From the NCBI GenBank assembly GCA_903896505.1, contig CAITXU010000114.1, positions 1 through 34,967 on the forward strand: a DNA stretch of 34,967 bases, read 5' to 3'. Shown piece after piece: positions 1 to 32,548 of the stretch. The stretch is from an uncultured Verrucomicrobiota bacterium. Lineage in GTDB: Bacteria > Verrucomicrobiota > Verrucomicrobiia > Limisphaerales > UBA9464. The notes under the pieces are model-generated. The model was not told where the DNA came from. It saw only the letters and a program-made list of their open reading frames with translations, and ran no database searches. Made by a program: the position numbers and the translations under genes. Position 1 is the stretch's first letter, and each line of letters opens with the position of its first letter.

Positions 1-316
1 GAATTCGCCGTCCGCAGGACCGCGGCGGTCCAAACCGCGCCAATTCCGCAGGACTGGGAACGCGGACGTCTCGTCCGCAGGGCGGTCCTGAATGACCATC
101 CATCCGCAAACGCGAAGCGAATTCGCCGTCCGCAGGACCGTGGCTCGCGGGAAAATGCGCACTCTGTGGCCCCAACGGGGCGAAATGAGACAGCCCGGGG
201 CAACGCCCCGGGAATGAATTCACGGAAATTTTAGCCCTGAAGGGGCGAAACCAAAAAACCTATCGACGTCCGAGCCATGTCCCACATTTGGGACTGTCCT
301 ATCCCCAACTATCGAT
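1..316. repeat. Intergenic block of dispersed repeat modules
   Basis: No gene is visible here. A 22-bp segment starting GAATTCGCCGTCCGCAGGAC occurs exactly at 1-22 and again at 119-140. With its left flank GCGAAGC (112-118) it recurs at 18397-18425 with one mismatch in 29. The adjoining stretch 21-51 (CGCGGCGGTCC...ATTCCGCAG) also has a diverged relative at 18364-18394. Positions 194-212 form a perfect 8-bp hairpin (CCCGGGGC, loop AAC, GCCCCGGG), flanked by two similar blocks, CCCAACGGGGCGAAA and CCCTGAAGGGGCGAAA. Such modules are typical of the dispersed palindromic repeats in verrucomicrobial and planctomycete genomes (from memory, not searched). Confidence 0.75.
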
Positions 317-5921: not shown

Positions 5922-5941
5922 AAACAAATGACCTGTCCCTT
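5922..5941 (+). repeat. Copy 1 of a 20-bp intergenic motif (AAATGACCTGTCCCTT core)
   Basis: The sequence AAACAAATGACCTGTCCCTT here is identical to 20265-20284, differs by one base from 20225-20244, and is present inverted at 32049-32068. The flank AGATAC upstream also resembles AGATATCC upstream of the 20225 copy, so similarity extends over about 30 bp. It lies 60 bp upstream of the peptidase start. Confidence 0.85.
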
Positions 5942-6167
5942 AGTCGTATTCTCGCCGCCGTAGTTCGCAATGTCGGGGAAGGTTTCCCCCGCCTTTTGTT
6001 GTAAATTTCACCTACCCTCAGAAAGAAACCGATATCCGTGATGGTGGGTGTTCAGACTTGAGGGATGAGCGGTTTTTCCGGTAACTCTTTGGTCCTACTT
6101 GGGTCATTTTCCATGCGACGCCTTTGCTCTCCTCCGGCTTTCTGGTCGGCCTGCAGTAGGAAGTCGC

Positions 6168-6224: not shown

Positions 6225-7085
6225 ATGACAAAGACCGAGATTTGCAAAACGACCGAACGACGACGTTCCGGTTTGGGTGGTTTCACCCTGATTGAACTGC
6301 TGGTGGTAATTGCCATCATCGCCATTCTGGCCGGAATGCTGCTCCCCGCTTTGGGCAAGGCCAAGACCAAGGCTCAAGGCATCCTGTGCATGAACAATGG
6401 CAAACAGTTGATGCTGGGCTGGAATCTTTACGCGGGCGACAACCGAGAGGGATTGGTCACCCCCTTGGACGATGGGTCCAATCAAACGAAAAATCGCCCT
6501 GTCTGGGTTAAAGGCGACATTAGCGGATATACCAACCCCCAGAACACCAATGTCAACGTTCTGACCAATAGCCCGCTCTATACCTATACGGGGCGTTCGC
6601 TGCCGATTTATCTTTGCCCCGCCGACCGTTCCGCCACAGGGCGACTTCCCAATTCCAAGGGAACACCCCGAATTCGCAGCATTTCGATGAGTCAGGTTTT
6701 TGACTTCGGGTCATGGCTTCCCGCAAACAAATATCGGGTGTATGCCCGCTCGACGGACATCGTGAGCCCTGCTCTGACGTTCGTCACCGTTGACGAGGCC
6801 CCAGACTCTATCAATGACGACGCCATCGCCGTCCAAATGATGGACCCTGGCGCAACCAGCGGCAGCCTGATTGACTATCCGTCGCAGGAACACGGTGGAG
6901 CTTGCGGTTTTTCCTTCTCTGATGGCCATTCTGAGATTCACAGATGGCTCAGCAAGGTTTTCCGGACCAAGTCCACCTATAAGACGACGGTGGCTGGTGC
7001 TGGTACCATTAGTTCCAAGGGTGGTGACCCGCTCTCGGTGACGGATGGTCTTTGGCTCTCGGAGCACACGACGGTGAAGAAGTAG
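6225..7085 (+). CDS. Prepilin-like protein with type II secretion/pseudopilin N-terminus and H-X9-DG C-terminal motif
   Basis: 286 aa. Residues 18-40 are the class III prepilin signal: cleavage G19|F20, then F-T-L-I-E with the mature Glu5 equivalent at E24, followed by a hydrophobic helix ([17 protein letters not shown]). The C-terminal third has [13 protein letters not shown], i.e. H, nine residues, DG: the H-X9-DG tail of the large Verrucomicrobiota/Planctomycetota/Lentisphaerota family. PilD-type peptidase would cleave and methylate it, and the product would sit at the inner membrane or in a pseudopilus. The real role of this expanded family is unresolved; surface display or secretion of polymers has been suggested. 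It is monocistronic: a candidate promoter lies upstream and a strong terminator follows at 7107-7135. Confidence 0.9.
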
Positions 7086-17822: not shown

Positions 17823-18256
17823 AATCACGACCCTTTTTGCTGAGCACTCTGGTGGCGGCGGCCTTGTTAGCGGGGTGTACGTCATTTGAGTCGGATTGGA
17901 ATGCCACCACCCGCTATCCCGCGCCTACCGGCGATATCTCGGGTCCCTGGATCGGGACGTGGCAAAACACCAACAACGCACACCGAGATCAGCTTCGCGC
18001 TGTGGTCAAGCGTGTGGGATTGCACGAATGGCAGGCCCATTTTCATGCCCACTATGGACGGTTGCTGACCTTTTCCTATCGGGCGAAGTTGACCGGCGAC
18101 GAAAAGGACGGACAGGTTCATTTCACCGGCGAACAGAACCTCGGTTGGCTCGCTGGCGGGACCTTCCGCTACGTCGGGGAAGCCAGTCCGACCAACTTTT
18201 TCTCCACCTACGAAAACGCCTACGACTCCGGTACCTTCACCCTCCATCGCCCGTAG
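17819..18256 (+). CDS. Small predicted lipoprotein of unknown function
   Basis: 145 aa. It begins with MKSRPFLLSTLVAAALLAGC, a lipoprotein signal with lipobox LLAGC. The mature part is short and beta-rich: GPWIGTWQNTNNAHRDQLRAVV, then HAHYGRLLTFSYRAKLTG and ending YDSGTFTLHRP. The GxWxGxW opening and the strand pattern suggest a small beta-barrel or lipocalin-like fold, but I do not recognise a named family. The start codon overlaps the stop of the GH31 gene (ATGA), so translation is probably coupled. A role next to the glycosidase is inferred only from this overlap. Likely anchored in the periplasm. Confidence 0.8.
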   Translation: MKSRPFLLSTLVAAALLAGCTSFESDWNATTRYPAPTGDISGPWIGTWQNTNNAHRDQLRAVVKRVGLHEWQAHFHAHYGRLLTFSYRAKLTGDEKDGQVHFTGEQNLGWLAGGTFRYVGEASPTNFFSTYENAYDSGTFTLHRP

Positions 18257-18334
18257 CGCCGACGTTCCGATCCTCCAAATAACAGCCTGTCTTTCCAACT
18301 CAATGATTCAAAGGCAACCGATTGAACCAGAAGA

Positions 18335-18440
18335 ACATCGGTAGGGCGAGGCTCCTGCCGAGCCGCGGCGGTTCGAACCACGCCCATTCCGCAGAAGCGA
18401 AGCTAATTCGCCGTCCGCAGGACCGAGGGTCCTGCCAAGC
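18335..18440. repeat. Dispersed repeat patch between convergent genes
   Basis: GGTAGGGCGAGGCTCCTGCC (18342-18361) precedes CGCGGCGGTTCGAACCACGCCCATTCCGCAG-like sequence (18364-18394), which matches 21-51 of the window with a few changes. Then 18397-18425 matches 112-140 at 28 of 29 positions. AGGACCGAGGGTCCT (18419-18433) is a small palindrome. The patch lies between the plus-strand lipoprotein and minus-strand scpB genes. Confidence 0.75.
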
Positions 18441-18498
18441 CGAGTCGGTCCGGATCACTTTTCGGCCCAACGCCACTCGACAGGATTCCCGGATTGAC

Positions 18499-20093: not shown

Positions 20094-20558
20094 TGAATCC
20101 GCGGCCGACTGGGTCCGCGGGGGAGAGGGCTTACCACATCAGCGACCCTTTTGGCAACGGCGGCGTAGGACATCGCCAGCGGTCTGTCCCGCAGAACGCC
20201 CGGAAATCTCATCACCAGATATCCAAACAGATGACCTGTCCCTTAGTTGACTACCGGAAATGACAAACAAATGACCTGTCCCTTAGTTTGATACCAAGTC
20301 GGGACTAGTGGGTATGGACCGCGGTAGGTTCGCTTTTCCTGTTGAGTCAAAGATTTTCAGCTTGACACACGGAACCGGTTCAAGATGGCACGGTTTGTCC
20401 CACTCGTTTCGAACCGATTATGCGTAAGTACCTGATGATCAATGCTTAGCTGTTTGCCGGCGAGGGGTTCATTCCCGGCATCTCTCATGCGGCCAGTGAG
20501 TCAAGGTGTTCCCGGACGGGTTCGCCAAAAATAAATCAACTTAGACTCATCACTTGTT
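20094..20558. other. 465-bp divergent spacer between scpA and hsp20
   Basis: No gene visible. It holds the two direct copies of the 20-bp motif (20225-20244 and 20265-20284, exactly 40 bp apart), a TTGACA hexamer (20362-20367) with no good -10 partner, and a GCCGG/CCGGC stem (20456-20460 and 20475-20479). I found no CIRCE element, although a heat-shock gene follows. A 9-codon ATG frame at 20419-20448 has no ribosome binding site and is probably chance. Confidence 0.6.
20225..20284 (+). repeat. Copies 2 and 3 of the 20-bp motif in direct repeat
   Basis: 20225-20244 reads AAACAGATGACCTGTCCCTT and 20265-20284 reads AAACAAATGACCTGTCCCTT, both followed by AGTT, in the same orientation as 5922-5941. 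Their 40-bp period and the shared AGTTGACTACC / AGTTTGATACC right flanks suggest a tandem duplication of a slightly longer unit. Confidence 0.85.
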
Positions 20559-30998: not shown

Positions 30999-32033
30999 AT
31001 GATCTTGGGGATCGAAACCTCGTGCGACGAAACGTCGGTCGCGGTGGTGACCAATGGTCGCGTATTGGCCAATTGCGTCGCTTCGCAGACGCAGCTGCAT
31101 GCGGAATATGGGGGAGTCGTCCCGGAATTGGCCACCCGCGAACACTTGCGAAACCTCATCCCCATGGTCCGGACAGCTCTTCGGGAATCAGGGTCGACTC
31201 TGGGTGACATCACGGCCATCGCTGCCACCCGGGGACCGGGGTTACCAGCTGCACTCCTGGCGGGCTATACCGCTGCCCAGGCCATGGCCTATGCTTTGGC
31301 GATCCCCCTCTTCGGGATACATCATCATGAGGCCCATTTGTACTCCCCTTGGATTGACAGTAAATCCCGCGCTGCCGATTGGGCCAAATTCGAACCGCAT
31401 GTCGCCCTGATCGTCAGCGGAGGTCACACCCTTCTGGTGGCGGTGAATGGCCTGCTTGACCACCAAGTTCTTGGAGGAACCCTCGACGACGCAGCCGGTG
31501 AATGCTTCGACAAGACGGCAAAATTGCTGGGCCTCCCCTATCCGGGTGGACCAATTCTCGATCGATTGGCCATGGAAGGCGACCCGTCGAGCCACGCCTT
31601 TCCACGACCTCGAATCACCGATCCCGACGATGACTTTAGTTTTAGCGGCCTAAAAACCAGCGTGCGCTACTGGCTGGAACGGAATCCGGCAGTTGCCGAC
31701 GATCCCACGTCGCTGCGAAACCTTTGCGCTTCAATACAGGCGGCCATCGTTGAGGTTCTCGCCGTCAAGGCGGTTCGGGCAGCGAAGCGTGTCGGAGTCG
31801 GCGGGGTGACTGCCAGCGGTGGAGTGACCTGTAATTCAGGGCTACGGAGGGAATTGGCCAACCGCTGTGAGCGACACCGACTTTGGCTTCGAATCGCTGA
31901 CCCCAGCCTTTGCACGGACAACGCAGGCATGGTGGCGGTCCTGGGCGAACGCCTATCTCTATCCGGTTCCGCACCGGACACCTTCGACGCCGAAACGCGC
32001 CCCAGCTGGCCCTTGAACGAGCTCATCCGCTAG
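30999..32033 (+). CDS. tsaD: tRNA N6-adenosine threonylcarbamoyltransferase TsaD
   Basis: 344 aa. The opening MILGIETSCDETSVAVV is diagnostic. Metal ligands are H109 and H113 in HHHEAHLYSPW, and the C-terminal aspartate lies in CTDNAGMVA. SGGHTLLVAVNG, LDDAAGECFDKTAKLLGLPYPGGP and FSFSGLKTSVRYWLE complete the ASKHA-fold signatures. With TsaB, TsaE and TsaC it attaches threonylcarbamoyl to A37 of ANN-decoding tRNAs. The start is at 30999, with no true Shine-Dalgarno (GCGAG only). Last gene of the long plus-strand run; the RAYT remnant follows immediately. Confidence 0.97.
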   Translation: MILGIETSCDETSVAVVTNGRVLANCVASQTQLHAEYGGVVPELATREHLRNLIPMVRTALRESGSTLGDITAIAATRGPGLPAALLAGYTAAQAMAYALAIPLFGIHHHEAHLYSPWIDSKSRAADWAKFEPHVALIVSGGHTLLVAVNGLLDHQVLGGTLDDAAGECFDKTAKLLGLPYPGGPILDRLAMEGDPSSHAFPRPRITDPDDDFSFSGLKTSVRYWLERNPAVADDPTSLRNLCASIQAAIVEVLAVKAVRAAKRVGVGGVTASGGVTCNSGLRRELANRCERHRLWLRIADPSLCTDNAGMVAVLGERLSLSGSAPDTFDAETRPSWPLNELIR

Positions 32034-32041
32034 TTCCCGTT

Positions 32042-32254
32042 AACTACAAAGGGACAGGTCATTTGTTTGATGGAGCAGCGATTGGGAGTCGGGGCTGGGT
32101 GAATCAGGTGTTTGAAGACCATCGCCAGCGGTTTGGACCCAGGCGCAAGGATGGGGCGAGGCAGTTTAGGTTCCTGAATGAATCCGATGTTTTTGGATTG
32201 CGGGATCTGAGGTTGGAGCCCGTGGGGGGTTCCGCCAGTGCAGCGACAAAGTGA
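32042..32254 (+). pseudogene. C-terminal remnant of a REP-associated tyrosine transposase (RAYT, Y1_Tnp/IS200-like)
   Basis: The plus-strand frame reads, after the repeat, FDGAAIGSRGWVNQVF then EDHRQRFGPRRKDGARQF, and later DVFGLRDLRLEPVG before a TGA at 32252-32254. This matches the C-terminal end of RAYT proteins as I know it (DGxxxGSxxFV...F...RxxFGxKRKxGARxxxG...LRDL). The catalytic HUH and tyrosine regions and everything before are missing. The remnant starts at the inverted copy of the 20-bp motif (32049-32068), just 8 bp after tsaD ends. The frame remains open back into tsaD, but that is overlap, not transposase. Recognised by eye; a protein search would settle it. Confidence 0.7.
32049..32068 (-). 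repeat. Copy 4 of the 20-bp motif, inverted, at the transposase remnant
   Basis: AAGGGACAGGTCATTTGTTT is the exact reverse complement of the 5922-5941 and 20265-20284 copies. It forms the left edge of the RAYT C-terminal remnant. Confidence 0.85.
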
Positions 32255-32548
32255 AAGCGTTCGGACCATCATTGCTTGGTTCGACGCCCCTTTCCGGCCT
32301 CAAAGCCTTCGTTGTGTCGACGATTTCCCTACGGCGGTACCTTTTTGACGCCATAAGCACGTCTCCTCTGCCTCAATGAATCATGTGACCGGCAGGAATT
32401 TCCCGTCCGTTTTGGTCGGGAAAACGGCGACTTTGTACCCAGGGCACACAAAATTTCCAAAAAACCTATTGCACTCAAGCGGGCGATTGATACCTTCTGC
32501 CTCCCCGTTGCCGCCGGTTGGTGGTGACTCAATATTTTTTCGGCCGCA

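Follow-up and report, generated by a model that had tools for sequence, protein, structure and literature searches.

The open frame that follows tsaD poses a question of origin, since it encodes the C-terminal ~53 residues of a RAYT/TnpAREP-type Y1/HUH transposase and these are fused straight to a 20-bp motif that recurs elsewhere in the window (the whole 34,967-nucleotide stretch analysed here). The 3' boundary of tsaD is at 32033 and the frame begins 8 bp beyond it, with the reading first given for it (Table 1). By itself, the 70-residue frame matched no Pfam or NCBIfam model. It does match 24 other C-termini encoded by the same genome, at 62-83% protein identity, and the complete copies among these genes carry the Pfam Y1_Tnp domain, which bears out its original identification as the end of a RAYT. 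One further weak match, C248, is to a left end and not to a C-terminus. The stub is very probably a defunct copy, left by an internal deletion, of a single-strand (Y1/HUH) transposase element that is present in many copies.

Table 1. Features of the window that bear on the origin of the stub.
Feature	Position	Strand	Basis or remark
Solo motif copy ACTAAGGGACAGGTCATTTGTTT, between two divergent open frames	5922..5944	-	exact 20-mer at 5922-5941
Solo motif copy, second of a direct pair	20225..20247	-	20-mer at 20225-20244, one mismatch
Solo motif copy, first of a direct pair 40 bp apart	20265..20287	-	exact 20-mer at 20265-20284
Open frame of the stub	32042-32254	+	translation NYKGTGHLFDGAAIGSRGWVNQVFEDHRQRFGPRRKDGARQFRFLNESDVFGLRDLRLEPVGGSASAATK, then stop
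Left end of the element, ACTACAAAGGGACAGGTCATTTGTTTGA	32043..32070	+	base-by-base profile of RAYT-linked and solo motif copies
20-bp motif in the stub, AAGGGACAGGTCATTTGTTT	32049-32068	+	exact
Deletion join	32069..32070	+	GA common to left end TTTGTTTGACAT and codon 284 GATGGAGC
Remnant of the transposase C-terminal tail, DGAAIGSRGWVNQ...FGLRDLRLEPV	32069..32229	+	81-90% DNA identity to subfamily-A copies of the same genome
Frame tail without counterpart in other copies, ending in TGA; apparently host DNA at the right end of the element	32230..32254	+	boundary accurate to a few bases

The genome is a MAG in 298 contigs, many of which break within the transposase gene, and copy numbers are therefore given as counts of ends. 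We recovered 25 5' ends, at least 25 3' ends, and seven complete copies inside contigs, the last being open frames 339-364 residues long that match Pfam Y1_Tnp (PF01797; 45.3 bits for a full-length copy, against a cut-off of 23). When the motif was sought genome-wide beside these genes, as the original prediction had proposed, it or a close variant was present at all 25 recovered 5' ends. Three other Y1-type genes (C127, C275 and C272) have no comparable motif copy within ~1.5 kb; with up to 4 mismatches allowed, the flanks of two of them gave none and a single 4-mismatch match lay near the third. The usual order at the 5' end is motif, then TTGACA-N16/17-TACTTT or similar, then ATG 5-7 nt later, although in L038 the motif directly abuts the ATG. 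The TTGACA-N16/17-TACTTT sequence is probably a promoter carried within the left end, from which a leaderless message would be made. This promoter-like left end is conserved in two species (e.g. L036, L044, L161-L168). A hairpin, GTCA-N6-TGAC, was also considered for the left end; its energy is weak, and its right arm is better read as the -35 element of the promoter-like sequence. Five of the complete copies differ by 8-12% in DNA sequence with dN/dS of 0.07-0.15 (Nei-Gojobori), which indicates descent from functional genes, and their dS values of 0.34-0.54 argue that they are not very recent.

The motif is much more numerous than the gene. Four matches occur in the window compared to 0 in 100 shuffles; two of the three outside the stub are exact copies, as had been claimed for all three, and the one at 20225-20244 departs from the motif by one base. 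Exact copies of GGGACAGGTCATTTG number 54 genome-wide, and at up to 3 mismatches the 20-mer is found at 120 places in the 5.36-Mb genome (reversed control, 0). At least 84 copies lie away from the transposase gene. Motif copies occur singly, in 13 direct pairs 21-44 nt apart (two of these at gene starts), and in at least 5 inverted pairs. Profiles of 27 gene-linked and 84 solo copies share the core AC(A/T)AAGGGACAGGTCATTTGT. Gene-linked copies run on as TTTGACA; the solos fade past TGT and lack the six conserved bases TTGACA, of which the stub keeps the first four (TTGA). The original prediction had connected the motif with REP-type palindromes; it is not palindromic, and hence not a REP, no GTAG head appears in the profile, and the gene is nearer the TIRYT type discussed below. 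A single 21-nt unit has a folding energy of 0 kcal/mol, no better than shuffles, and inverted pairs of the motif fold into long hairpins. A second, unrelated family of dispersed repeats (GAATTCGCCGTCCGCAGGACCG..., GGCGGTTCGAACCGCGCC) is also present in the window (1-146, 2246-2263, 18367-18431, and about 6279-6443 and 18239-18459), with dozens of copies at ~70-93% identity in sister genomes.

The relatives used for comparison are uncultured Verrucomicrobia MAGs. A search of the sister species G001 for AAGGGACAGGTCATTTG, with 1 mismatch allowed, gave nothing; most RAYT 5' ends there carry GGGCCAGGTCA instead, as far from the ATG as in the source genome and with the same TTGACA, and this variant also has solo copies. 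In these two assemblies, the motif is thus seen to co-vary with the transposase lineage between sister species. In more distant genera the sequence upstream of the gene is GGGACGGGTCATTTG (G004, G006), GTGACAGGTCTT (G005) or GGGACAGGACG (G011). A second sister, G002, has one motif in the spacer orthologous to window 20225-20284, which has two. C66, C24, C26 and C2 are complete copies with a conserved gene to one side, and in both G001 and G002 the corresponding neighbourhoods lack the transposase gene (4 of 4), with one side only alignable in each; the intergenic flanks in the sisters are too diverged for the exact insertion join to be read. As judged from these alignments, the insertion locations are species-specific. 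Several Verrucomicrobia members of the family have from 12 to 48 transposase matches each.

The motif had been suggested to be either the terminal or the target sequence of the transposase. It is unlikely, in our estimate, that it is the target, with the element beginning at TTGACA and inserting just 3' of a pre-existing host repeat. Under such an arrangement the solo copies would be empty targets, the retention of a target at the left flank would have its parallel in IS200/IS605 elements, and the two gene copies that adjoin a second motif copy (L034 and L081) would be readily understood. Yet the RAYT-linked motifs differ in composition from what sampling of the solos would give: the base at -1 is A in 25 of 27 gene-linked copies but in 36 of 84 solos, and the base at -4 is T in 18 of 27 compared to 11 of 84. 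Motif variants also track the transposase subfamily, with subfamily 2 (C24, C244 and C82) having GGGACAGG(T/C)ATTTTGTATTG, and in L034 two left ends stand in succession, the first of them complete with TTTGACA, as would suit an end carried by the element itself. A terminal position is favoured, although the choice is not strictly settled.

Alignment with five full-length copies indicates that the stub keeps the left end CATTTGTTTGA and then jumps to codon 284, so that ~880 nt are absent, with a 2-nt overlap (GA) at the join. The missing segment includes the remainder of the promoter-like region together with the initiation codon, the HUH motif and the catalytic Tyr residue. Allowing up to 3 mismatches, we found no second occurrence of the join in this genome or among 18 relatives. 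A join found once in the genome is that of a dead copy with an internal deletion, and we reject the alternative of an amplified miniature element. These observations uphold the earlier view of the stub as a relic. The truncated copy C120 (L064) is a second internal deletion, in which the left end is joined at ~codon 142. Another copy, C169 (L263), is cut past ~codon 145, a break point that nearly complements that of C120. Relative to the subfamily consensus the stub shows 11 synonymous and 7 nonsynonymous changes, comparable to other copies, and the deletion may therefore be recent. In itself the stub is an ordinary relic, yet it is useful in defining the left end of the element. The genes tsaD and rpsL are also adjacent in G001 (window 31999-32450 compared to L118), where the remnant is absent; the tsaD C-terminus and the tsaD-rpsL spacer differ strongly between the two. 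The G001 locus was considered as an exact empty site and rejected, since the end of tsaD differs too and leaves no exact join.

Solo motifs and gene 3' ends are both common in this genome, and two unrelated events, in which recombination united a solo motif with a gene 3' fragment or a motif inserted into such a fragment, might also have produced the stub. We regard this as improbable: the left end of the stub reads TTTGTTTGA where the join begins, which marks its motif as the gene-linked type; it runs on as TTTGA, as gene-linked ends do and solos rarely do; its flank, ACTACA|AAGGG, is likewise of the gene-linked type; and C120 has the same left end joined to a different internal codon, as would be expected of internal deletions. 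That the fragment has been retained as a small protein, such as a transposase tail serving as a DNA-binding repressor, is very improbable, for although its 52 codons contain no stop or frameshift and its ratio of nonsynonymous to synonymous changes is inside the range of other copies, similar counts are expected under a recent deletion, the -10 region and ATG are lost with TTG the only in-frame start near the motif, and the unique join is absent from all 18 relatives.

The right ends of the elements are less regular than the left. The subfamily-A 3' ends recovered all agree as far as FGLRDLR; beyond it the point of divergence varies, lying from 2 to 69 nt past the FGLRDLR codons (median 18.5, a rough ungapped estimate), and it follows that the final residues and the stop codon are largely host DNA. 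Some extra tail sequence is common to L053 and L069, and some to L064 and L068. In other genera, the common sequence likewise stops near the stop codon. An inverted motif lies downstream within ~210 bp in L053, L055 and L061, and as a variant in L075; these 4 of ~25 copies exceed the chance expectation from motif density but are still a minority, and the element thus appears to lack the two defined ends of a normal IS. A terminal inverted repeat within the RDL codons, whose GACCTG reverse-complements the CAGGTC that the motif contains, was rejected because of synonymous variation: the same codons also read GATTTG, GACTTG and GATCTT, with no evident constraint at the DNA level.

Taken with the preferred reading of the stub as a deleted copy, these ends outline an intact element. 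It is ~1.05-1.15 kb long and opens with the 20-bp motif as its probable left terminus; TTGACA-N16/17-TACTTT comes next, the ATG stands 5-7 nt beyond it, and the frame of ~335-350 codons closes at roughly the right end of the element. In the copy beside tsaD, a deletion with a 2-nt overlap would have taken the interior and left both ends. The transposase would presumably cut and join single-stranded DNA at the motif, as do IS200/IS605 and TnpAREP enzymes, and the same reaction may move both the gene and the bare 20-bp motif; movement of the bare motif would account for the solo copies. We offer more tentatively, as a possibility we would not favour at present, a TnpAREP-type gene that is still mobile and is one-ended: the left motif would be the fixed end, the right end would be set by where, close to the end of the frame, transfer of the strand happens to stop, the protein would be finished in host DNA, and the bare motif would be scattered by the same reaction. 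The genes encoding RAYTs have been described as single-copy and domesticated (PMC8049555), and tnpAREP as mostly single-copy, with no evidence of gene mobility (PMC8266576). The genomic distribution described here suggests that a transposase of this type, usually seen as a domesticated single-copy gene, behaves in this lineage like a mobile element. What is unusual is that so many copies are under purifying selection, at locations that differ between species, and that their right ends vary. For the spreading of repeats by RAYT/TnpAREP enzymes, this genome is a natural system for testing end sequences and strand chemistry: its ~25 copies are dispersed and selectively constrained and have their left end in common, a solo repeat co-varies with them, and deletion relics are present.

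Among known systems, the protein belongs with the TnpAREP enzymes. The HUH motif (NHFH) and Tyr motif (AAYIDLNP), both missing from the stub, are evident in the alignment, and YIDLNP is invariant across 15 aligned relatives, in agreement with the TnpAREP class 2 signature Y---NP (PMC6006769). The match to NCBIfam NF047646 (RAYT sensu stricto), at 48.1 bits, is below its cut-off of 80. An AlphaFold model built from 15 relatives (mean pLDDT 72.5, poor over much of the C-terminal tail) has as its best structural match the E. coli RAYT 4er8 (E 1.3e-4), followed by the ISDra2 and IS608 transposases. The family protein has a ~50-residue insertion after NHFHILVEV and a long C-terminal tail. TnpAY1 subclass 2.3 is described as having a ~55-residue insertion between beta3 and alphaC and a long subclass-specific tail; its members are long (median 325 aa), multi-copy (mean 3.9) and found mainly in Chromatiales and Alteromonadales, with no flanking REP or repeat detected (PMC6006769). 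Likenesses to this subclass, an assignment that rests on motif and length and not on the published HMM, are the long protein (here about 335-350 aa), the extra core segment, the WE motif, Y(V/I)DLNP, several copies per genome, and the lack of a hairpin REP beside the gene. The present family differs in its occurrence in Verrucomicrobia, in the number of matches in several members, and in its clear left-end repeat.

REPtrons, such as E. coli TnpAREP, similarly combine HUH and a single Tyr having Y---NP with a dispersed repeat matching the gene flank, but the repeat here has no GTAG head or hairpin and the gene is not single-copy. IS200/IS605 elements (IS608, ISDra2) share the catalytic-domain fold and a dispersed, multi-copy gene; they differ in that the family studied here has no stable subterminal left hairpin, a longer protein and an imprecise right end. 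TIRYTs have non-REP inverted repeats on either side, which contain the motif GGGGWSAS and form moderately abundant TIR families (PMC3733652). Distant Y1 genes in G040 and G008 (L140 and L143) have the classic TIRYT layout, with inverted repeats on both sides, e.g. GGGGTCGGTCCTCACTATTGACA / TGTCAATAGTGAGGACTGACCCC. Like the TIRYT/TIRtron, the present system joins a RAYT-like Y1 gene to a genomic family of short non-REP repeats that match the gene end and occur singly, as dimers and in clusters, and AGGGACAG fits GGGGWSAS at 7 of 8 positions. In contrast to the inverted copies expected on both sides of a TIRYT, the motif here is always at the left and at the right in only the minority noted above; the right end lies inside the reading frame or shortly beyond it; and ~25 genes replace the few per genome described in PMC3733652. 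On these features, the closest described kind appears to be a TIRYT/TIRtron with a TnpAREP subclass 2.3-like protein. The family is intermediate, combining a TIRYT-like end motif and a subclass 2.3-like protein with high copy number, constant left ends and variable right ends.
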